DNA from: Sandaracinobacteroides saxicola | GTDB lineage: Bacteria; Pseudomonadota; Alphaproteobacteria; Sphingomonadales; Sphingomonadaceae | Reading direction: 5' to 3' | Assembly (NCBI RefSeq): GCF_014117445.1 | Contig: NZ_CP059851.1 | Span: 2,542,001 to 2,606,000 of the forward strand | DNA: 64,000 nt | Shown: positions 21,060 through 29,877 of the stretch, piece after piece | Layout: every line of letters starts with the position of its first letter | How positions within the stretch are numbered: the stretch's first letter is position 1 | Program-made: the position numbers and the translations under genes | Notes under the pieces: generated by a model | The model's database searches: none | What the model saw: the letters and a program-made list of their open reading frames with translations, nothing else | What the model was told of the DNA's origin: nothing

Positions 21060-21146
21060 GCCCAGATGGCGGAATTGGTAGACGCACCAGCTTCAGGTGC
21101 TGGCGGTCGCAAGGCCGTGGAGGTTCGAGTCCTCTTCTGGGCACCA
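21060..21146 (+). tRNA. tRNA-Leu (anticodon CAG)
   Basis: A complete class II cloverleaf. The acceptor stem is GCCCAGA/TCTGGGC, the anticodon stem CCAGC/GCTGG encloses the loop TTCAGGT with anticodon CAG, and there is a long variable arm. The T arm is GAGG-TTCGAGT-CCTC, followed by discriminator A and an encoded CCA end. Its 3' half is overlapped on the opposite strand by the tail of the recombinase ORF, and it marks the left boundary of the accessory island. Confidence 0.97.
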
Positions 21147-22796
21147 TTTCGGTCCAAAGCTGCGAGTGCCTAGCACCGCCGCCTCTACGCCAGAGGCGGC
21201 GGCTAGCACTCGGATCAGTTCGCTGCGGTTGCCGCGAATGCGCACTTCGGTCTTGCTGACGACCTCGACCCGCTGGGCCACGGCCCGGACGTGGTTGCGG
21301 GCGTAAGTGCCGTCGTCGTTGCGCAGCCTTTGCCGAGCGGCGGCGGCGAACTCTCTGATCTTCTCGACGGTTATCTCCGGCGCGGTCTGGGTGAAGCGTG
21401 CCATCGCACGCTCAGCGTCACCCCGCGCTTGTTCGCGTATCCCATTCAGCTCGGTGATCCTCGCCTTGAGGGACGGATCGCCCATATCGACCACGCCATT
21501 CTCGATCGCCTCATACAACCTAGACAGCTTAGCTTCCGCCTCGGTCGCGCGGCGTCCCATCTCGGCAACGTGCTGGCGGCGCTCAGTCATCGATTCCTCG
21601 CGCCGGTCGAGCAGCTGTTCCAGCAGGATACGCAGCCGGGCGGGGTCCAGAAGCCGCGATTCGAGATGCGCGATGACGGCGTCGTTCAGCCGGTCCATCG
21701 GGATCGAGATGCCAGGACATGCGGTTTCGCCCTTCGTCGCCTTGGTCGCACAGGCATAATATTTGTACATCTGGCCACTCCGGCTGGTGCCGGTCCGCAG
21801 CGTCATCGCGCCGCCGCAGCAGGCGCAGAAGCAGATGCCCGTCAGCAGGGTCGAGCCGCCGACCGCGCCCGGCGCCATCATCTTGGGGCTCCGTGCCTTC
21901 AATGACCGCTGCACCGCTTCGAACTCGGCCTCGCTGATGATCGGCGGGACGGCCATGATGGCATGCTCTTCGGCGGGCTTTCGGCAACCCTTCTTGACAT
22001 TGTAGGTGTTGAACCGATGCTGGCCGATATAGGTCGTGCGGGTCAGCACTTCGTGGACCATGCCCTTGCCCCAGCGGCCACCATAGCGCGTGCGGATGTT
22101 GTTTTCGTTGAGCCAGCAAGCGATCGCCATGACGCCCATCGGTCCGCTTCCATCAGCGCCTTCGAGCGCCAGACGGAACATCTTGCGGACCGTGTCGGCG
22201 TAGAGCGGGTCGATCTCCAGCTTCTTTTTGATTTTCGCGCCGCGCTGTTCGGCTTCGACGGTGCGGTAACCGATCGGAGGACGAGCGCCGTTCCAAAAGC
22301 CCTGGCGGGCGTTTTCGTTCATCGCGCGCAGCGTGTGCTTGGCCGTTTCCCTGGACTGGTATTCGTCGAACAGCGTCATGATCTTGCGGACCATCTCGCT
22401 GGCGGGATCGTCGCCGAGCACCTGTGTGATCGACACAAGCTGGACACCGTTCTTCGCGAGCTTTCGCAGGTAGAACTCGAACTGGAACTGATCGCGGAAG
22501 AAGCGCGAGAAGCTGTGGACAACGATCGTGTCGAACGCCGGTGGCTTTTCGAGGGCAGCGTCGATCATGTCCTGGAACGCCGGTCGGCGGTCATCGGTGC
22601 CCGATACGCCCGGCTCGACAAACTCGGCAGCGACGTCCCACGCCCGCGATCGGCAATACTCTTCGAGCTGGCGGCGCTGGTCGGGGATCGACAGATCGTG
22701 ATCGGCCTGACGCGGCGTCGATACGCGAAGGTAGAGCGCGACATGACCAGTCGCTTCGACCGGAACCTCGGTTTCTTTGACAGCGGCGATGCTCAT
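21093..22796 (-). CDS. Large serine recombinase (integrase of the island)
   Basis: 567 residues. The resolvase domain carries catalytic Ser26 in LYLRVSTPRQ and the following arginine-rich sites (VHSFSRFFRDQFQFE). It is followed by a recombinase domain (GFWNGARPPIGYRT, WLNENNIRTRYGGRWGKG) and a zinc-ribbon (CFCACCGG...YYACATKATKGETACPG), then a coiled coil and C-terminal tail. Such proteins integrate and excise mobile DNA without a tyrosine intermediate. The last 17 or so residues (about WCPEEDSNLHGLATAST) are encoded by the antisense strand of tRNA-Leu, and the TGA stop falls in the anticodon loop. Confidence 0.93.
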   Translation of the reverse strand: MSIAAVKETEVPVEATGHVALYLRVSTPRQADHDLSIPDQRRQLEEYCRSRAWDVAAEFVEPGVSGTDDRRPAFQDMIDAALEKPPAFDTIVVHSFSRFFRDQFQFEFYLRKLAKNGVQLVSITQVLGDDPASEMVRKIMTLFDEYQSRETAKHTLRAMNENARQGFWNGARPPIGYRTVEAEQRGAKIKKKLEIDPLYADTVRKMFRLALEGADGSGPMGVMAIACWLNENNIRTRYGGRWGKGMVHEVLTRTTYIGQHRFNTYNVKKGCRKPAEEHAIMAVPPIISEAEFEAVQRSLKARSPKMMAPGAVGGSTLLTGICFCACCGGAMTLRTGTSRSGQMYKYYACATKATKGETACPGISIPMDRLNDAVIAHLESRLLDPARLRILLEQLLDRREESMTERRQHVAEMGRRATEAEAKLSRLYEAIENGVVDMGDPSLKARITELNGIREQARGDAERAMARFTQTAPEITVEKIREFAAAARQRLRNDDGTYARNHVRAVAQRVEVVSKTEVRIRGNRSELIRVLAAASGVEAAVLGTRSFGPKWCPEEDSNLHGLATAST

Positions 22797-22814
22797 CAGC
22801 GGATACTCCTCAAC

Positions 22815-23048
22815 TCAATCGATCGGGCCGAACAGCGCATCCAGCTCGTCGCGCAGATGCCCTTCCATGACGCGCAGTTCGGTATCGCCGATCGGCACGA
22901 TCTCCGGCCAGTCGTCGGTAACCCTAATCGGCTCGGTCGGTCGGTGCGCCACACAGCGACGGTCCGGCGCACACAAGGTATAGTCGTGCAGATCGAGTTT
23001 CTCGAACACATTGCGCGGAACGCGGTAGCGACGTCGGGGTATTGGCAT
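22815..23048 (-). CDS. Small hypothetical protein upstream of the recombinase
   Basis: 77 residues, MPIPRRRYRVPRNVF..., with an acidic C-terminal half (GDTELRVMEGHLRDELDALFG). The composition looks like a real protein, but I do not recognise a family. It lies between yhaV and the recombinase on the same strand. The codon before its ATG is TAG and there is no obvious ribosome-binding site. A different frame starting with GTG at 23119 encodes STYLHYAGNDHLRVAIPG before running into this gene, so the true gene may be frameshifted. A recombination directionality factor is possible by position only. Confidence 0.45.
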   Translation of the reverse strand: MPIPRRRYRVPRNVFEKLDLHDYTLCAPDRRCVAHRPTEPIRVTDDWPEIVPIGDTELRVMEGHLRDELDALFGPID

Positions 23049-23115
23049 CTAGCCACGCTGTCGCCTGGTATCGCCACGCGCAAATGGTCATTTCCGGCGT
23101 AGTGCAGATACGTGC

Positions 23116-23607
23116 TCACGGCGTGTCCGGCATGGTTACCGTTAGCCGTTCGCGCGCCTCTGGGGCTTTCGCCGCCGCGATCAGCGCCGTCCAGTCGTCG
23201 GGCGGATTGCCGCTGTCCAGCATCTTGCGGAACACCGCATAGGCATCGGACTTGGCACCATAGGTGCGCAGCGTCGTTTCGTCGTTGACCCAGGCAAACA
23301 CGATCACCTTGGCGCTGCTGCTGTAGCGGAAGAACAGCCGAAACCGCCCGCCGCCGAACTTCGCCCGGAACCAGTGCTTGCGGGCATCGCCCAACGTCCC
23401 GCCCTGACGATATTCGGGACGGGTGGGATCCTGCGGGAGGGTCTCGAACACGAGTTGGCGCAGGGCCGCGAGCAGCTTCGCGTTGGCCGACTTACGCCAG
23501 CCGCGCGGGTCTTTCGCTCGCGCCTTCTCGACCGCCGCTGCCAACTTCTCGATCTGATCGAGGAACAGCGGATGGGCGAACAACTGCCACCCGTTTACCT
23601 CCAGCAT
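23116..23607 (-). CDS. yhaV: YhaV family toxin (type II toxin-antitoxin)
   Basis: 163 residues with the RelE-superfamily YhaV layout: NGWQLFAHPLFLDQIEKL at the N-terminus, then WFRAKFGGGRFRLFFRYSSS and VIVFAWVNDETTLRTYG. YhaV is a ribosome-associated mRNA interferase neutralised by PrlF. The start codon abuts the stop of the upstream antitoxin gene. In this setting it probably stabilises the integrated element. Confidence 0.9.
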   Translation of the reverse strand: MLEVNGWQLFAHPLFLDQIEKLAAAVEKARAKDPRGWRKSANAKLLAALRQLVFETLPQDPTRPEYRQGGTLGDARKHWFRAKFGGGRFRLFFRYSSSAKVIVFAWVNDETTLRTYGAKSDAYAVFRKMLDSGNPPDDWTALIAAAKAPEARERLTVTMPDTP

Positions 23608-23934
23608 TTAGAGAGCGACATCGCCGTCGATCGGCGCATCGAGGTCGACCTTCACGCCGTCGGTCAGCGCCGCAAGACGCTCAGCCAGTGTCGGTGTCAG
23701 CGCAGTGACCGCCTCGGGTCGCCGGGCAATGTCGTCGGCAAGGAACGCTAGGAACCGGTCAATGGCGGGGTCTTCGTTATCGACCTCCGCGCGGTGGACA
23801 GACACGCCGCGCTCGTCGACCCGGAACGCGATCTTGCCGCCATAATCGACGCCAAGCGCGGTTCGGACCGACTTCGGAACCGTGGTCTGGCCCTTGGCGG
23901 TGATAGTGCTGATCTCTTCGAGCATTGCGGACAT
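23608..23934 (-). CDS. prlF: PrlF-type antitoxin (AbrB/SpoVT fold)
   Basis: 108 residues. The N-terminal swapped-hairpin DNA-binding domain reads ISTITAKGQTTVPKSVRTALGVDYGGKIAFRV. The acidic C-terminal half (DNEDPAIDRFLAFLADDIARRP) presumably binds YhaV. Such antitoxins repress their own operon; an inverted repeat lies in the promoter region (23959-23980). Confidence 0.9.
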   Translation of the reverse strand: MSAMLEEISTITAKGQTTVPKSVRTALGVDYGGKIAFRVDERGVSVHRAEVDNEDPAIDRFLAFLADDIARRPEAVTALTPTLAERLAALTDGVKVDLDAPIDGDVAL

Positions 23935-23958
23935 GACGGTCTCCTATACGCCTACTTC

Positions 23959-23980
23959 TTGTAAGGAGATCGCATTACAA
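23959..23980 (-). promoter_or_regulatory. Candidate prlF-yhaV operator
   Basis: A perfect inverted repeat TTGTAA (23959-23964) / TTACAA (23975-23980) with 10 bp between arms lies 25 bp before the prlF start. On the minus strand it overlaps a plausible promoter (TTGACT, about 17 bp, TACAAG), the expected place for autoregulation by PrlF. Confidence 0.45.
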
Positions 23981-23989
23981 AGTCAAGGA

Positions 23990-24073
23990 GAGAGGAAGAG
24001 GGCGGCGGCTGTCGCCGTGACGGTTCGAGTGTCGAGAGAGAGGCTCTCGGCTGGGCCGTCGCGGAGACATGTC
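23990..24073 (+). ncRNA. Repeated structured 5' leader, copy 1 (upstream of DUF932 gene)
   Basis: This leader matches 25310-25399 and 26298-26386. The hairpin CGAGAG-[AGAGG]-CTCTCG is at 24033-24049. An enclosing stem can form between GGGCGGC (24000-24006) and GCCGTC (24055-24060). The ribosome-binding site GGAGA (24063-24067) lies just after the 3' arm and 6 nt before the ATG. A local hairpin CGGCG-GCTGT-CGCCG is extra in this copy. It could be a cis-acting RNA or a protein-binding operator. Confidence 0.7.
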
Positions 24074-25273
24074 ATGACACAAGTTCAAGTTATCGACGCG
24101 AGCCCCGACCGGAGTGGTGGCTACAAGGTCGATGTGGGTCGCGGCCAGCGGATCGGCCGGGTATCGTCGGAATGGTTCAGCCGTCCCGCCGATGAGCGTT
24201 ATCTGTCGCTAGATGCGCTGATGGTATCAGTGAAGGGCCGAGCCGAGCGCAGCCGCACGCGCACGGTAGAGAGCGCCGCCGTCCGGGTCGAAGCCAGCCG
24301 CGACAATGCCGAACGGCTCGACCTGATCTTGCCCGGTGCCGAACAGCCGATTGCGACGACCCATTGGAGCTTCGGCCAGCTGGCGGCCTTGGTCGGCGCG
24401 CCAGCGGCGTATCTGCGCCAGCTTCCGGCACCGCTGGCAGGCATCAACCTGCAATATGGCCTCACCAACCACCGCGCCGAGCAGGTCAAGACGCTGGAGA
24501 CCGACGATGGCCGCATGGAACTGCGCGCCGTCACCGGCCCGGATTACGGACGCATTTACGACCATGAGCTGGTTGCTGCCGTGCAGCGCATTGCGGGTAA
24601 CGGCACTGGCGATACCCGCTGGAAGGTGCCGGGCGTGCTCGATTGGTCGACGGGCATCTACAATCCAATGGTCGATATCAGCGCCGACACCACCACGCTC
24701 TATGCGTCCGACCGTGACGTGTTCCTGTTCCTGGTCGATGACCTCAACCCGATCGAGGCAGGCAAGCTGCCCGACGGATCGCCGGACCTCTACTTCAGGG
24801 GCTTCTACTGCTGGAACTCCGAGGTGGGGGCCAAAACGCTCGGCATCGCCAGCTTCTACCTTCGCGCCGTTTGCCAAAACCGCAACCTGTGGGGAGTCGA
24901 AGACTTCGAGGAGATCAGCATCCGGCACAGCAAATACGCCGCCAACCGCTTCGCGCATGAAGCTGCACCAGCGCTGACCCGGTTCGCCGATTCCTCGCCG
25001 CTGCCGTTCGTCAACGGCATCAGGCAGGCCCGCGAGCGCATCGTTGCGCGCTCCGACGAAGATCGCACCGATTTCCTACGCAAGCGCGGGTTCGGGAAGG
25101 CCGAGACCGCCAGGATCATCGACACGGTGCTCGCCGAGGAGGGCCGTCCGCCCGAGTCGGTGTTCGACTTCGTCCAGGGCATCACCGCCTTCGCGCGCGG
25201 CAAGGCCCAGCAGGACGCGCGGCTCGAGCTAGAGGGTCGCGCCAAGAAGCTGTTCGATCGGGTCGCGGCATAA
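24074..25273 (+). CDS. DUF932 domain protein (plasmid/phage-type)
   Basis: 399 residues. The family core is visible as THWSFGQLAALVGAPAAYLRQLP, LQYGLTNHRAEQVK, RAVTGPDYGRIYDHELV and SDRDVFLFLVDDLNPIE, ending with a Lys/Arg-rich tail. DUF932 (LGT_TIGR03299-like) proteins are common on plasmids, phages and integrative elements; their role is unknown. The frame opens at 23882, but the ATG at 24074 follows the conserved leader and its GGAGA site. Confidence 0.88.
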   Translation: MTQVQVIDASPDRSGGYKVDVGRGQRIGRVSSEWFSRPADERYLSLDALMVSVKGRAERSRTRTVESAAVRVEASRDNAERLDLILPGAEQPIATTHWSFGQLAALVGAPAAYLRQLPAPLAGINLQYGLTNHRAEQVKTLETDDGRMELRAVTGPDYGRIYDHELVAAVQRIAGNGTGDTRWKVPGVLDWSTGIYNPMVDISADTTTLYASDRDVFLFLVDDLNPIEAGKLPDGSPDLYFRGFYCWNSEVGAKTLGIASFYLRAVCQNRNLWGVEDFEEISIRHSKYAANRFAHEAAPALTRFADSSPLPFVNGIRQARERIVARSDEDRTDFLRKRGFGKAETARIIDTVLAEEGRPPESVFDFVQGITAFARGKAQQDARLELEGRAKKLFDRVAA

Positions 25274-25309
25274 CTTTCCTCGTCATCATCGTTCCGACAT
25301 GCGGCGTCG

Positions 25310-25399
25310 TCCTCTTCGAGTGAGAGGGCGGCGCTGCGCTTCGTGACGGTCTGAGATGTCGGAAGAGAGGCTTCCGGCCGGGCCGTCCGGAGACTTGCC
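25310..25399 (+). ncRNA. Repeated structured 5' leader, copy 2 (upstream of DUF6878-like gene)
   Basis: It shares GAGGGCGGCGCTGCGCTTCG and TGACGGT with copy 3. The perfect hairpin CGGAAG-[AGAGG]-CTTCCG is at 25360-25376. The outer stem is GGGCGGC (25326-25332) with GCCGTCC (25382-25388). GGAGA at 25389-25393 is the ribosome-binding site for the ATG at 25400. Compared with copy 1, two stem pairs change in a compensatory way. Confidence 0.72.
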
Positions 25400-25894
25400 A
25401 TGACCGACCCCTCTTCCGAACCTGTCGCCACGATCGATGCCCAAGCCATCTGGCAAAGCTATCTCGAACGAGAAACCGCGCGCGAAGCGCTGTTCGAGAC
25501 ACTGCGCCCGGCGAACCAGATCACGATTTTCGATGCGCTCATAACCGCCGGTATCGTCAGCCTGGTCGTCAACTTCGATGGCTATGGCGACAGCGGCCAG
25601 ATCGAGTCGATCACCGCCATGGGGCCTGACGGCGAAATGGCTCTGCCGGAGATCAGCATCGCTTATGCCTCACCCGCGAGGGCCGACGCTGACGATCCCG
25701 TCGATCGCCAGCCGATGCCGCTGGCCAAGGCGGTCGAGACGCTGTGCTACGACCTGCTGCGTCAGACGCATGCAGGTTGGGAGAACAACGACGGTGCGTT
25801 TGGCGACTTCACTTTCGACGTCGCCGCACGGACGATCGGCCTCGACCACAACGATCGCTACACCGCGATCGAATCCTACGCGCATCAGTGGTGA
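25400..25894 (+). CDS. Hypothetical protein resembling DUF6878
   Basis: 164 residues, acidic and soluble. Notable are NFDGYGDSGQIESITAMGPDG, a Cys in AVETLCYDLLRQTHAGWENNDG and FDVAARTIGLDHNDRY. The GYGDSGQIE and WENNDGAFGDF patterns resemble the DUF6878 family found in plasmid/ICE accessory regions; the assignment is from memory and tentative. The start is fixed by the conserved leader and GGAGA site. The next gene begins 10 nt after its stop. Confidence 0.75.
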   Translation: MTDPSSEPVATIDAQAIWQSYLERETAREALFETLRPANQITIFDALITAGIVSLVVNFDGYGDSGQIESITAMGPDGEMALPEISIAYASPARADADDPVDRQPMPLAKAVETLCYDLLRQTHAGWENNDGAFGDFTFDVAARTIGLDHNDRYTAIESYAHQW

Positions 25895-25904
25895 GGAGGC
25901 GATC

Positions 25905-26267
25905 ATGGGACATTGCTATCACCACGCGCTGTCGTCGGTTCGCAAGTGGGGTGGAACACCCGAAGAATACTTGCCGCTGCACCAGTGGTTCGACGAATCC
26001 AAGGCGATCACAGCCGACTTCCGCCACCGGGCGCTGCGCCATCATGCCGAGGGCATCTTCATGCTGGAGCGCTTCTTCGGTCCCACTCTTACCCTTGGCA
26101 CCGGACGCGTCGTGCCCGTGCGCCTGATCGGCGAACAGCACGTCGTTGAGGATCTGGGGTTCGTGCCGAGCTTCGCGGACTGGGTTCGGGCGATCCGGCC
26201 CGAGCCGTGGATGGGGCGTGCTCAACCGATCCACAAGCTGGTTGATCCGTTCGCGGCTGCGGCCTGA
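25905..26267 (+). CDS. Hypothetical protein resembling DUF6915
   Basis: 120 residues beginning MGHCYHHALSSVRKWGGTPEEYLPLHQWFDESKA in two overlapping stretches, then RHRALRHHAEGIFMLERFFG and the aromatic C-terminal WVRAIRPEPWMG. It is histidine-rich at the N-terminus. I believe it belongs to DUF6915, a small family seen with DUF6878 and ParB on mobile elements; function unknown. GAGGAGG lies 7 nt before the ATG. It has no leader of its own and is probably co-transcribed with the preceding gene. Confidence 0.75.
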   Translation: MGHCYHHALSSVRKWGGTPEEYLPLHQWFDESKAITADFRHRALRHHAEGIFMLERFFGPTLTLGTGRVVPVRLIGEQHVVEDLGFVPSFADWVRAIRPEPWMGRAQPIHKLVDPFAAAA

Positions 26268-26297
26268 TCCTTCCCCGCGACATGTCGGTGCGTCGCT

Positions 26298-26386
26298 CTC
26301 TTCAGAGGAAGAGGGCGGCGCTGCGCTTCGTGACGGTTCGAGGTGTCAGGAGAGAGGCTCCCGGCCGGGCCGTCCGGAGAAGTGTC
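26298..26386 (+). ncRNA. Repeated structured 5' leader, copy 3 (upstream of parB-like gene)
   Basis: The hairpin CAGGAG-[AGAGG]-CTCCCG at 26347-26363 has one A/C mismatch; the outer stem GGGCGGC (26313-26319) pairs with GCCGTCC (26369-26375). GGAGA at 26376-26380 precedes the ATG at 26387. The middle segment TGACGG could pair with the same CCGTC, giving two mutually exclusive folds. Confidence 0.72.
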
Positions 26387-27232
26387 ATGGCCAAGTCCAA
26401 TCCCAAGCTCGCGCTCAGCGTCTCGCGCGACATCCCGTTCGACAAGCTGGTGCTGTCGCAGTCCAACGTCCGCCGGATCAAGGCGGGCGTCGGCATTGAG
26501 GAACTCGCCGAGGATATCGCCCGGCGCACGCTGTTGCAGTCACTCACCGTCCGCGCCGTCGTCGATGCCGATGGCAACGAGACCAGCATGTTCGAGGTGC
26601 CGTCTGGCGGTCGTCGCTACCGCGCGCTCGAACTGTTGGTAAAGCGCAAACAGCTTCCCCGCAATGCGCCGGTGCCGTGCATCATCCGCACCGAGGGCGA
26701 TGCCGAGGAAGACAGCCTGGCCGAAAACATTCAGCGGGCACCGCTGCACCCGCTCGACCAGTTCCGTGCCTTCCTGGCGCTCCGCGAGAAGGGCCAGTCC
26801 GAGGAGGAGATCGCCGCGCACCAATTCGTGTCGGTGGCAGTGGTCAAGCAGCGCCTGAAGCTCGCCGCTGTCAGCCCGAAGATTCTCGAAGCCTATGCCG
26901 AGGACGAGATCACGCTCGACCAGCTGATGGCGTTCACGGTCAACGGCGACCATGAGCGTCAGAAGCAGGTCTTCGAACGGCTCGCTGGCTCCTACGACCG
27001 CCAGCCATACGCGATCCGCCGGATGCTGACCGAAGGCGCGGTGCGAGCATGCGACAAGCGCGCCCGGTTCATCGACATCGATGCCTATATCGAGGCCGGT
27101 GGCGGCGTCATGCGTGACCTGTTCCAGGGCGACGATGGCGGCTGGCTGCAGGATGTGGGCCTTGTCGATCTGATGGTTTCCGAGCGGCTGCGCGAAGAGG
27201 CGATGAAGGTACAGGCCGAAGGCTGGCGATAG
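26387..27232 (+). CDS. ParB/Srx-domain protein, truncated by internal deletion
   Basis: 281 residues. The ParB N-terminal domain is clear: FDKLVLSQSNVRRI, GGRRYRALELLV, ED.LAENIQRAPLHPLDQFRAF, then the HTH region EEEIAAHQFVSVAVVKQRLKLAAVSPKIL. Relatives on mobile elements are usually far longer (about 600-700 residues). Here the frame stops at 27232 just after EEAMKVQAEGWR. The following bases encode an acidic tail in another frame (27232-27324) that looks like the original C-terminus, so the middle has been deleted. The N-terminal domain may still bind DNA or CTP. Confidence 0.85.
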   Translation: MAKSNPKLALSVSRDIPFDKLVLSQSNVRRIKAGVGIEELAEDIARRTLLQSLTVRAVVDADGNETSMFEVPSGGRRYRALELLVKRKQLPRNAPVPCIIRTEGDAEEDSLAENIQRAPLHPLDQFRAFLALREKGQSEEEIAAHQFVSVAVVKQRLKLAAVSPKILEAYAEDEITLDQLMAFTVNGDHERQKQVFERLAGSYDRQPYAIRRMLTEGAVRACDKRARFIDIDAYIEAGGGVMRDLFQGDDGGWLQDVGLVDLMVSERLREEAMKVQAEGWR

Positions 27233-27324
27233 ACGATGGCGAACGGTCCGTGGCGGATGAAGCGCCGATCGACGACAATGCCGGGGCCGAGGGCGATACC
27301 CCCTTCGCCGTCGCCGCCGAGTAG
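27232..27324 (+). pseudogene. Out-of-frame remnant of the parB-like C-terminus
   Basis: In the frame starting at 27232 the sequence reads DDGERSVADEAP, continues acidic, and ends DTPFAVAAE before TAG (27322-27324). The acidic, protein-like composition immediately after the truncated ParB suggests it is the native tail left behind by a frame-changing deletion. Confidence 0.5.
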
Positions 27325-27352
27325 GTCGCGCTCCCCAGACCCACTCGCAACT

Positions 27353-27423
27353 GAGGGTCCGCCGTGCATCGGGGTCCCCGCGAAGCCTGCTTCGTGGGGA
27401 TTACTCGGACGCGGCGGACCCTC
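27353..27423 (+). ncRNA. Strong two-part leader hairpin upstream of the toprim gene
   Basis: The outer stem is a perfect 12 bp: GAGGGTCCGCCG (27353-27364) with CGGCGGACCCTC (27412-27423). Nested inside is an 11-bp hairpin TCCCCGCGAAG (27375-27385) / CTTCGTGGGGA (27390-27400) with one G-T pair and loop CCTG. It ends 11 nt before the AGGAGGA ribosome-binding site of the gene at 27445. It is unrelated in sequence to the other three leaders and could be a regulatory RNA or an intergenic terminator. Confidence 0.6.
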
Positions 27424-27444
27424 TTCTTGTCTCAGGAGGATCAG

Positions 27445-28377
27445 ATGCCCGATGCATCCGACCTTGCACGGCAGCTTGCCCGCAATGCCGAGAGTGTCTG
27501 CCGTCACTATCTTCCGCAAGGTCGCCGACAGGGCCGTTACTGGCTCGTCGGCGATGTGGAAGGGACGCCGGGGCGGAGTCTGTTCGTGTGGCTCACCGGC
27601 TCAACGTCCGGCAAAGGTGCCGCAGGTAAGTGGACCGACGCGGCCACCGGCGAACATGGCGACCTGCTCGACCTCATCGCCGCCAGTCAGAGATTGATAT
27701 CCCTGGCCGACGCGCTTGAGGAAGCGCGGCGTTTCCTGTCGTTGCCACAACCGGAGCCACGGTCGTTCGAACCATTGCCGCCCGTGCCAACCGGCTCAGC
27801 CGAAGCTGGCTGGCGGCTTTGGGCGATATCGCAGCCTGTCCACGGCACGCTGGCCGAGACCTACCTCCGCCAGCGCGGCATCCCCGACCTGCGGGCGATT
27901 GGCTGTCTGCGGTTCCATCCGAACTGCTGCTATCGCGCCGATGCAGACGATCCACCCGGCACACCGGCAGCCTTTCCAGCTCTGATCGCAGCGGTTCGCG
28001 ATAGTGACGGGACACTTTGCGGGCTTCATCGGACCTGGCTCGATCCCAGTGGCATCACCAAAGCTGCGATCACCACGCCGAGGCCGGCCATGGGCGATCT
28101 GCTCGGGCATGGCCTGCGATTTGCTCGCGTGGAGGATGTCATGGTTGCCGGTGAGAGCATCGAGACGATGCTGTCACTTCGCCAGATTTTGCCAGACATG
28201 CCGATGATCGCTGCGCTTTCAGCTGCCCACCTCGCAGCCTTTAAACTGCCGCCCAATTTGCGCCGACTCTATATCGCTCGTGACACTGATGCCGCCTGGC
28301 ATCAGGCCGCCACGACCTTGGCAGACCGAGCGCAAGACAGCGGCATTGAGCCGCTGATGCTGGACGCTAGAGCGTGA
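27445..28377 (+). CDS. Toprim-domain (primase-like) protein, 3' end disrupted by IS630
   Basis: 310 residues. The N-terminal DUF7146-like part (ARQLARNAESVCRHYLPQGRRQGRYW, GKWTDAATGEHGDLLDLI) is followed by the Toprim_3-type domain with VMVAGESIETMLSLRQ and LRRLYIARDTDAAW. The E and D-x-D residues suggest metal-dependent nucleotidyl transfer. An AGGAGGA site fixes the start. The last two codons and the TGA belong to the left end of an IS630 remnant, so the native C-terminus is lost. Confidence 0.82.
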   Translation: MPDASDLARQLARNAESVCRHYLPQGRRQGRYWLVGDVEGTPGRSLFVWLTGSTSGKGAAGKWTDAATGEHGDLLDLIAASQRLISLADALEEARRFLSLPQPEPRSFEPLPPVPTGSAEAGWRLWAISQPVHGTLAETYLRQRGIPDLRAIGCLRFHPNCCYRADADDPPGTPAAFPALIAAVRDSDGTLCGLHRTWLDPSGITKAAITTPRPAMGDLLGHGLRFARVEDVMVAGESIETMLSLRQILPDMPMIAALSAAHLAAFKLPPNLRRLYIARDTDAAWHQAATTLADRAQDSGIEPLMLDARA

Positions 28378-28603
28378 TCGTGTTTGATTGAAGCGACGGG
28401 GGATTCCCAGAGTTGTGCTGATCTGATTCAGTCTTTGTGCTGGATTGGAGGTCAGCATGGATGACACGAGCCTATTCGATTGATCTTCGTGAGCGGGTTG
28501 TTGCGTCGATGGCGGCTTGTTTCATCGACGAGACTTGGGCCAAGACCAACATGACGCGTACGCACGGCCGCGCTCAGAGGGGCAAGCGGCTGATCGCCAA
28601 GGT
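28370..28603 (+). mobile_element. IS630-family remnant with large internal deletion
   Basis: The left end begins GAGCGTGATCGTGTTTGATT just after a TA target (28368-28369), as expected for IS630. It contains a transposase start fused to an internal piece of the transposase. No right end is recognisable; homology is lost after about 28603. Confidence 0.75.
28461..28603 (+). pseudogene. IS630 transposase fragment
   Basis: The reading frame joins the N-terminus MTRAYSIDLRERVVAS directly to FIDETWAKTNMTRTHGRA and RLIAKV from the DDE catalytic domain. Roughly 150 residues including the HTH region are missing between the two parts. The frame then runs into unrelated sequence until 28688. It cannot be active. 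Confidence 0.82.
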
Positions 28604-28838
28604 CCGCTTGACCCCCATAGGGGCTTATCGCAGATCAATGCAGCTAGGCTGGCGACGTCCGTCGATAAGCCGCCAAGGTGTTCGATAAGAGCTGACGGCT
28701 AGTTAGGCATATAGTTCCATGACTTGCCCTCAAAGGCGGGCGGTAAAGTGACCCGAAGCCGGCGGATACGCATGTCCAGGGTCGCGACGGTGCGTCCAAA
28801 AGGGTAGCAATCCGGGCATCACGAACGCTGTCTCCGTC

Positions 28839-29877
28839 ATGCAAGAGGTCGTCCGGTTGCAGGCCGAACTGGCCAGCGCACGGGCCGAGCTATGCGGTGC
28901 ACGCGCCGAACTCACCGGTGCCAAGTTGCTGATCGAACAGTTGAAGGGTCAACTCGCGGTGCTGCAGCGGATGGAGTTCGGACGGTCGTCAGAGAAGCTG
29001 ACCGGCGAAATCCTGCAACTCGAGTTGCTGCTCGAAGACGTGGAAGAGCGAGATGTCGAGCGGACCGCGCCGGCTGCGACCGTGACAGGTAGCGCGAACC
29101 ACCGCCGGCATCCGTCCCGTCGTCTCCTCCCTAACCATCTGCTGCGCAAGGACGCGGTCCACCGCCCAGGCGACGCCTGCCCCTGCTGTGGTGGCGCCCG
29201 GCTGTCAGAGTTCGGCGAAGATGTGACCGAGGTGCTCGAGCACATTCCGGCCAAGCTGAAGGGGATACGTCATATCCGACCGAGGCTGTCGTGCCGGTCG
29301 TGCGAGACGGTCATCTAGGAGCCGGCACCCGACTTGCCCATCGAGAGGGGCCGCCCACGTCCCGCGCTGATCCCCGCAGAAGGGTTGGCCGCATCGGTGC
29401 ACTCCATGACATCGAGCGCGAGATCGGCGGCCTGTCGCCCAGCGCCGCCTGAAGAACCGCCCGGAACGCAGCGTGCCGCTGCTCGCCTATCTGTGCACCT
29501 GGATAGAGACCGAGCGCCGACAGATGTCGAGCAAAAGCGACCTCACCAAGGCGCTGCAATATGCACTGGGCCGGTGGAAGGCACTGATCCGGTTCGGCAC
29601 GGGTGGTCGCCTCGCCATCGACAACAACGCCGCCGAACGGGTACTGCGTGGGATTGCTGTGACGCGGAAGAACTTCCTGTTCATCGGCTGCGATCGCGGT
29701 GGCGAACGCGCAGCCATCATCTACACCGCGCTTAAGTCCGCCCATCTGAACGGTATCGATCCTGATATGTGGCTCGCCGATGTCATCGACTGTCTTGCCC
29801 GCGGCCATGGACAGCACGACATTGATGCATTGTTGCCATGGAACTGGCGACAAGAGGCTGCCAGAATGGCGGCATGA
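28839..29877 (+). pseudogene. IS66 family transposase (tnpC), internally deleted
   Basis: The first part (28839-29318) has the coiled-coil N-terminus and zinc-binding CPCCGGARLSEFGEDVTEVLE region, ending at TAG after SCRSCETVI. Most of the catalytic DDE core is missing. The C-terminal part (from about 29440, in frame from 29473) has RPERSVPLLAYLCTWIE, GRLAIDNNAAERVLRGIAVTRKN and FIGCDRGGERAAI. At least one stop, one frameshift near 29445 and a large deletion make it inactive. Confidence 0.88.

Follow-up and report, generated by a model that had tools for sequence, protein, structure and literature searches.

The window analysed here, 64,000 nucleotides (nt) from the genome of Sandaracinobacteroides saxicola (a single contig of 3.36 Mb), contains three related segments of about 85 nt, each running up to the ATG of a different gene. 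A preliminary description of the window had proposed them as structured 5' leaders of unrelated genes; the segments are indeed mutually related, and the genes that follow code for unrelated proteins (DUF932-like, DUF6878 and ParB_N-like). The leaders are members of a large, apparently unnamed RNA family that occurs in many alphaproteobacteria, on plasmids as well as on integrated mobile elements. Copies were scored with model R1, built from 16 copies with the start codon left out, and with the broader model R2, built from 111 copies. The leaders and their genes are arranged as follows:

23991-24073, plus strand: leader copy 1, 5' of the DUF932-like gene; R1 87.6 bits, R2 79.6 bits, both over 23991-24067
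24074-25273, plus strand: DUF932-like gene, 399 amino acids (aa), start ATG 24074
25317-25399, plus strand: leader copy 2, 5' of the DUF6878 gene; R1 76.0 bits, R2 67.7 bits, both over 25317-25393
25400-25894, plus strand: DUF6878 gene, 164 aa, start ATG 25400; PF21798, E 1.2e-47
26291-26320, plus strand: inverted repeat at the 5' edge of leader copy 3, CGTCGCTCTCTTC-AGAG-GAAGAGGGCGGCG
26304-26386, plus strand: leader copy 3, 5' of the ParB-like gene; R1 79.1 bits, R2 68.8 bits, both over 26304-26380
26387-27232, plus strand: ParB-like gene, 281 aa, start ATG 26387; ParB_N, E 2.2e-5, just below the Pfam cut-off

Each leader forms an outer stem, P1, and an apical stem, P2. In copy 1, the 5' tail AGAGGAAGAG is followed by the 5' arm of P1 from ~24011 and by P2 with an AGAGG loop, and the Shine-Dalgarno GGAGA falls within the 3' arm of P1. 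The 5' arm of P1 starts at 25339 in copy 2 and at 26326 in copy 3. The loop is invariant across the three copies, as originally described. Of the paired changes reported for the inner stem, the exchanges of A-T and G-C at pairs 3 and 4 stand, but pair 2 of copy 3 (CAGGAG/CTCCCG) is an A-C mismatch. The outer stem had to be redrawn, as its proposed pairing of GGGCGGC with GCCGTC is absent from both the folds and the 111-sequence alignment, which give GACGG/CCGTC instead. Outward, P1 is extended by CUUCG/CGGAG in copies 2 and 3 and by a longer stem through GGAGAC in copy 1, and the GGGCGGC of copies 2 and 3 can pair with an upstream segment. The Shine-Dalgarno sequence, originally placed at the end of the 3' arm, actually lies inside it. 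A mini-ORF in the leader, GTG ACG GGT TGA, was considered and dropped, its conservation being absent by eye. Neither sigma-70-like promoter hexamers nor an intrinsic terminator (a GC-rich hairpin with a T run) were found at 23850-26500.

Conserved fold of the leader

The family element is ~76 nt long. Its consensus fold consists of P1 with ~12 pairs, an asymmetric UUGAG-like bulge and P2, which is capped by an AGAGN loop. The AGAGNNAGAG tail on the 5' side of P1 is largely unpaired and belongs, like the loop, to the most conserved parts. In a MAFFT alignment of 111 non-redundant copies, made from sequence only, 91.6% of the cells in the 12 pairs of P1 and the 8 pairs of P2 are paired. Both sides change in 17 of the 20 pairs, giving 150 double-changed cells as compared to 44.1 in shuffles (none of 500 as high) and 31-57 in controls with slid partners. 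On a tree of 261 copies, we counted 43 branch-level pair-preserving double substitutions, where 4.4 were expected with permuted 3' partners (standard deviation (sd) 3.6, maximum 24 in 2000). The alignments of 111 and 261 sequences exclude five matches (L082:6001, L136:5103, L157:5639, L161:6640, L103:219); those at L136 and L157 carry insertions and were studied apart, and that at L082 is probably a false match. Two copies have additional hairpins downstream of P2, before the 3' arm of P1, and nevertheless close P1.

Pairs of the sense strand include 324 G-U as opposed to 48 A-C; if pairs involving columns 79-84 are disregarded, the numbers are still 140 and 42. Because G-U exceeds A-C so far on this strand, the folding molecule should have the sense sequence, i.e. 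be the mRNA. At equal length, the sense folds of copies 1, 2 and 3 reach −42.5, −36.7 and −34.6 kcal/mol and their antisense folds −26.8, −21.5 and −19.8 kcal/mol. We therefore have little doubt that the leader is a structured RNA of the sense strand, conserved directly 5' of start codons. The large alignment, the branch-level test and the wobble bias agree with the proposal that structure rather than sequence is under selection in these leaders; the covariation on which this proposal depended is present.

The GGAG of the Shine-Dalgarno sequence occupies columns 81-84, in the 3' arm of P1, with a mean unpaired probability of 0.17 (median 0.09). Most copies have an A at column 83, with U at column 26 as its partner. 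Of the nine copies with G at column 83, eight have C as partner, compared to 2 of the 102 copies with A (Fisher 9e-10), so that the Shine-Dalgarno sequence is paired in a conserved fold with a compensatory change, L080:7937 and L074:4050 being exceptions. As the 3' arm of P1 contains the Shine-Dalgarno sequence, the fold would hide the ribosome-binding site (RBS), and the comparison of copies suggests that the leader probably limits translation in this way.

Several observations weigh against such a fold and such a role. Copy 1 folds with a z-score of −3.5 relative to shuffles, but copies 2 and 3, taken singly, fold little better than shuffles (z −1.1 and −0.9), and the antisense of copy 1 likewise beats them (z −2.2). 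Under an R-scape-like null, one of the 20 pairs (51-63) has E<0.05, 47-66 has E=0.5 and the rest have E≥5; the top five of the 2,628 column pairs in this test are all structure pairs. The lowest pairs of P1 are imperfect: 25-84 fails in 27 of the 111 copies and 26-83 in 37 (mostly G-A), for which reason we regard the closure of the P1 bottom as graded, not absolute. In L080:7937 and L074:4050, the GGAG is located beyond the stem and is therefore not hidden; without both copies, the column-83 count is 6 of 7. No trans-acting factor for the leader was found. A bistable switch between the linker and the P1 arm was rejected, as the hairpins score −3.66, compared to −3.39 (sd 0.15) with swapped linkers, which is not significant family-wide. 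With respect to a riboswitch, which would need a ligand pocket and an expression platform, the bulge, the tail and the loop of the leader are conserved, but the alternative pairing of the linker with the P1 arm, seen in some copies such as window copy 1, is not significant over the family.

An extra hairpin at the 5' edge, which places the AGAG of the tail near its loop, occurs in some ParB leaders. Window copies 2 and 3 have such a hairpin: the edge of leader 2 has a repeat similar to that at 26291-26320. For ParB leaders, this pairing is stronger with their own flanks than with those of other copies (z −6.0, 0 of 2000; 13 of 52 strong). As a family-wide feature the upstream hairpin was rejected, since 0, 624 and 1353 of 2000 permutations were as good for ParB, ArdC and DUF932, respectively.

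Distribution, position and downstream genes

Searches of fetched loci yielded 296 matches (80 + 149 + 67), 266 of them distinct in sequence; some loci are one contig fetched twice, so that the total counts a few places more than once. A DNA pattern of the leader occurs in at least 119 stretches of a species-genome collection. R1 has a match at E≤0.001 in 28 of 385 alphaproteobacterial genomes drawn from the class, and R2 matches 35 of 398 genomes drawn from the phylum, all 35 in the same class, and 36 of 246 drawn from the order of the window; the class and order draws include the window genome. Plasmid records matching by blastn numbered 35, 90 and 204 for three queries. A phage family was considered and rejected, as one blastn query had no match among phage records; two viral contigs did match the pattern. 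These contigs, L205 and L206 of a viral-contig collection, have leaders before DUF932-like/ParB and ArdC/ParB genes and may be plasmids or integrated elements.

All named hosts among the listed matches are Alphaproteobacteria, with names given for 80 of the 119 stretches (a few titled only Proteobacteria bacterium) and for 35 of 35, 40 of 90 and 30 of 204 plasmid records, the class being assigned mostly by name. The limitation to this class rests on these names, because the number of genomes from other classes in the phylum draw is not stated. In the window genome, a covariance model finds seven copies: three in the window, two near 1.887-1.890 Mb and two near 0.341-0.343 Mb. The first of the outside loci carries DUF932-like, ParB-like and toprim-like genes and a divergent serine recombinase 72% identical to that of the window; the second encodes ArdC, a ParB-like protein, a 1444-aa protein and a toprim-like protein.

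The leader had not been recognised as a named RNA, and Rfam 15 confirms this. A search of the whole window returned nothing beyond one tRNA, the region 23940-26420 had two weak matches at E up to 5, both off the leaders, and six leader-bearing loci had no family at gathering score. We found no prior description in the accessible parts of the literature; a list of 224 candidate RNAs from 2017 could contain one.

An ATG that opens an ORF is found 5-8 nt past the model end in 281 of the 296 copies, as compared to 5.7% of random places in the same loci; since the start codon was excluded from the model, this test is independent of it. The genes after the 296 copies are ParB-like in 137 cases, ArdC in 74 and DUF932-like in 60, with 23 other and two unassigned. 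These labels were combined by hand from a motif script with hand corrections (ParB 138, ArdC 74, DUF932 57, other 23, none 4) and a BLAST check (ParB 141, ArdC 73, DUF932 58, other or none 24), four small genes with a ParB neighbour being returned from ParB to other. Pfam confirmed the ArdC identity on one member (ArdcN and MPTase-PolyVal). None of 166 loci has copies on both strands, and 119 loci have two or more on one strand. A same-strand ORF of at least 100 aa ends at most 150 nt upstream in 148 of the 258 distinct copies with enough upstream DNA; ParB leaders lie close behind such an ORF in 96 of 122 cases (median ~40 nt). Conservation begins sharply at the first A of AGAG: the first four columns of the element reach 1.3-1.9 bits and the 40 columns upstream do not exceed 0.35 bit, so that there is no sign of a shared promoter just upstream of the copies.

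Relatives of a Haematobacter plasmid ParB-like protein are present in 38 of the 385 genomes of the class draw. By coordinate comparison, all 27 relatives among the matches listed that reach 49% identity and retain the N-terminus start right after a leader; two further relatives above 49% that lack the N-terminus were set aside, and few candidates per genome were scored. Upstream of 16 weaker or partial matches we found no convincing leader; the best score there, 14.7 bits, comes from an incomplete hit that is antisense to the gene and lies in a stretch truncated at the contig end. The border between leader and ParB clade is imperfect, because a weak relative, G148 (38%), has a leader; several weak matches were left outside this check. 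At L258 and L259, 5' of two ParB relatives (47% and 45% identical), there is no leader and another inverted repeat stands directly before the Shine-Dalgarno sequence (GGGGTGCAGCGC...GCGCTGCACCCC in L258); it may fulfil the same role without being related to the leader.

Distant variants of the leader precede a family of 120-128 aa (L073:6472, L074:5533, L080:6446). Those at L074:4050 and L080:7937, in which the lower stem is flipped, precede a 173-aa protein that resembles, by eye, an exported thermonuclease.

Possible function and relation to known systems

In Shine-Dalgarno-sequestering leaders, such as the autoregulatory leaders of ribosomal proteins and RNA thermometers, a hairpin hides the ribosome-binding site, and leaders of a single kind can govern more than one gene. 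The leader described here differs from these in general in its association with mobile-element genes and in having no Rfam match; its predicted fold in the window (−34.6 to −42.5 kcal/mol) looks too stable for an RNA thermometer. We think it fairly likely, judging from sequence comparison, that the leader is a 5' untranslated RNA that acts in cis on the following gene by hiding its Shine-Dalgarno sequence and is probably tuned by a factor. A shared cis-acting RNA before mobile-element genes had been suggested for the window copies, and the covariation, the wobble bias, the fixed ATG distance and the lack of an Rfam match are in agreement with it.

By default, translation would be off or low. 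A factor that reads the invariant AGAG motifs of the AGAGNNAGAG tail and the AGAGN loop might then stabilise or open the fold; an RNA-binding protein encoded by the element, a host protein and a small RNA are all candidates. That a trans-acting factor joins the leader-bearing genes into one regulon is a possibility to which we give somewhat less than even weight, and a link between the timing of the leader and conjugative entry is more doubtful still. Leader-controlled proteins might be made in a short burst on entry into a new cell and be repressed afterwards; a repressor absent from the naive recipient would yield such rapid, transient expression. This burst would be the likely purpose, because many of the genes (ArdC, ParB-like, DUF932-like) are of establishment type. 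In the accessible parts of the respective papers, ArdC is described as required in the recipient, not the donor, for transfer of R388 to Pseudomonas putida (PMC7213743), and establishment genes as expected to need rapid, transient expression (PMC8708921).

The same fold could serve as a passive insulator that keeps expression low or blocks the translation of read-through mRNA without any regulator, AGAG being structural or a docking site for the ribosome. The fold predicted for all three window copies is stable enough for this and no AGAG-binding partner was found. Further, P1 starts 66 and 59 nt past the preceding stop codon in the window, so far away that, we infer, it would be out of reach of a terminating ribosome, and EGeRS1 of the Bacillus plasmid pLS20 is reported to stop read-through from upstream promoters (PMC8708921, accessible part). 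Yet the tail and the loop are highly conserved though mostly unpaired, which exceeds the needs of a passive stem, and we consider an insulator rather unlikely. Much less probable is an element for the processing or stability of mRNA, for instance a site for RNase III or RNase E by which the transcripts of clustered genes are separated: a single long hairpin per gene, often between adjoining same-strand genes, would suit it, but the compensatory changes in the Shine-Dalgarno pair and the near-fixed ATG spacing would be left unexplained.

Explanations at the level of DNA fare equally poorly. The sharp edge of conservation at AGAG and the repetition before several genes could reflect double-stranded DNA to which a transcription regulator binds, as an operator or promoter element. 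However, pairing is kept while the stem sequence varies, with many G-U pairs, the upstream columns hold no conserved promoter-like signal, and many copies follow closely behind same-strand ORFs, as seen in the ParB leaders; we hold such an operator to be very improbable. The gene types would fit a Frpo/ssi-type single-stranded DNA (ssDNA) promoter or priming site that serves while ssDNA enters, as ArdC and ParB-like genes are of the leading-region type and several plasmid neighbourhoods hold genes for single-stranded DNA-binding protein (SSB), antirestriction and toprim proteins. Frpo-like promoters elsewhere precede anti-defence genes, according to the accessible part of PMC11541004. Such a promoter should act on the template strand, following the reasoning in PMC8708921 as far as accessible, whereas the wobble bias indicates folding of the sense strand; moreover, the element ends in a Shine-Dalgarno sequence at a near-fixed distance from the ATG and the region 23850-26500 lacks sigma-70-like hexamers. 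The leader is thus most unlikely to be an ssDNA promoter. The known Frpo/ssi elements of F and ColIb-P9 resemble it in standing before anti-defence and establishment genes and in being repeated on one element, and differ in acting at the DNA level with −35/−10 elements (accessible parts of PMC11541004 and PMC8708921).

The nearest functional parallel to a translation-limiting leader is EGeRS1 of pLS20, for which we rely on the accessible part of PMC8708921 throughout. In both cases, one element is repeated before different operons or genes. EGeRS1 is a set of conserved, structure-rich sequences immediately 5' of the RBS in establishment operons, that of ardC among them; its form EGeRS1-B has no constitutive promoter and prevents read-through, and its authors report no evidence as to whether ssDNA or RNA matters. 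It is 420-750 bp long, with four ramifications predicted for the ~325 nt next to the RBS, and belongs to a Gram-positive host, whereas the leader is a ~76-nt single hairpin of alphaproteobacterial hosts. EGeRS1 lies upstream of the RBS, which in the leader is part of the element, and we saw no counterpart in the cited text to the covariation and Shine-Dalgarno pairing of the leader. Since length and host differ and the two are likened by description rather than sequence, we consider the resemblance an analogy, not membership. The STAXI motif, which occurs near ssb, topoisomerase, antirestriction and integrase genes, is another structured candidate (PMC2864571, accessible part); it is formed by tandem pseudoknots, unlike the leader, on which no Rfam family reached gathering score.

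The leader family provides an entry point to the question of how the conjugative elements of a large class of bacteria might schedule the expression of anti-restriction and maintenance genes. Being common and clearly bounded, it is suited to tests with point mutants, and it can mark further candidate establishment genes, such as those for DUF6878, DUF932-like proteins and two families of 185 and 128 aa, of unknown function.

A three-hairpin block and the element in the window

Directly 5' of many ArdC and DUF932-like leaders are three tandem hairpins: GGGGAA..TTCCCC, a variable stem, and TGCGGGG..CCCCGCA. We collected 48 distinct copies of this block (for example L062:6076-6154, minus strand, and L008:4455-4532, plus strand). 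Among leader copies with 160 nt of upstream sequence, a search string finds it at 32 of 70 ArdC, 17 of 56 DUF932-like, none of 141 ParB-labelled and 1 of 24 other or unlabelled genes. A model of the block matches 20 of the 385 genomes, the window genome included, some of them without a leader match; in the window itself it has no match at E≤0.1. Where the leader is missing, the longest nearby ORF codes for a DUF2958 protein at three places, starting 212-566 nt further on, and at one place a ParB-like ORF starts 317 nt further on.

Double-changed cells in the block number 27, as compared to 9.7 in shuffles (0 of 500); further pair types are not above shuffles (284 of 500) and one slid control equals the covariation score. 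Over its 21 pairs, aligned columns hold 1 G-U and 17 A-C, some of the A-C cells being due to a register shift in the middle stem. Because there are almost no G-U pairs, the block probably acts at the level of DNA. It possibly folds on the template strand and is a candidate single-strand promoter or priming site, which we regard as a lead, not a result. One could speculate about an establishment regulon with two layers, though we think it unlikely: on entry, the template-strand block would switch on ArdC or a DUF932-like gene as the first, after which the AGAG leader, present in front of every key gene, would limit translation through an accumulating AGAG-binding repressor encoded by the element. 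If true, this would amount to zygotic induction at the level of translation.

The three leaders of the window sit inside an apparent small integrated element (21060-29318), with flagellar genes further right. Its other features are:

21060-21146: tRNA-Leu
21093-22796, minus strand: serine recombinase gene
23116-23934, minus strand: PrlF/YhaV toxin-antitoxin genes
25905-26267, plus strand: DUF6915 gene, 120 aa; PF21866, E 1.2e-47
27445-28377: toprim gene
28839-29318: IS66-type transposase fragment

The DUF6915 gene has no leader, as R2 finds no match immediately 5' of its start. The DUF932-like protein has itself no match in Pfam or NCBIfam; over 395 aa it shares 82% identity with a plasmid protein that carries the DUF932 annotation and scores just below Pfam's DUF932 cut-off. 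The ParB-like protein matches TIGR00180 at 1.9e-13, below the cut-off of that model, and its gene is probably truncated, as many family members have ~700 aa. A very strong hairpin, unlike the leaders, lies directly 5' of the toprim gene (27326-27444), in a stretch that folds at −65 kcal/mol.

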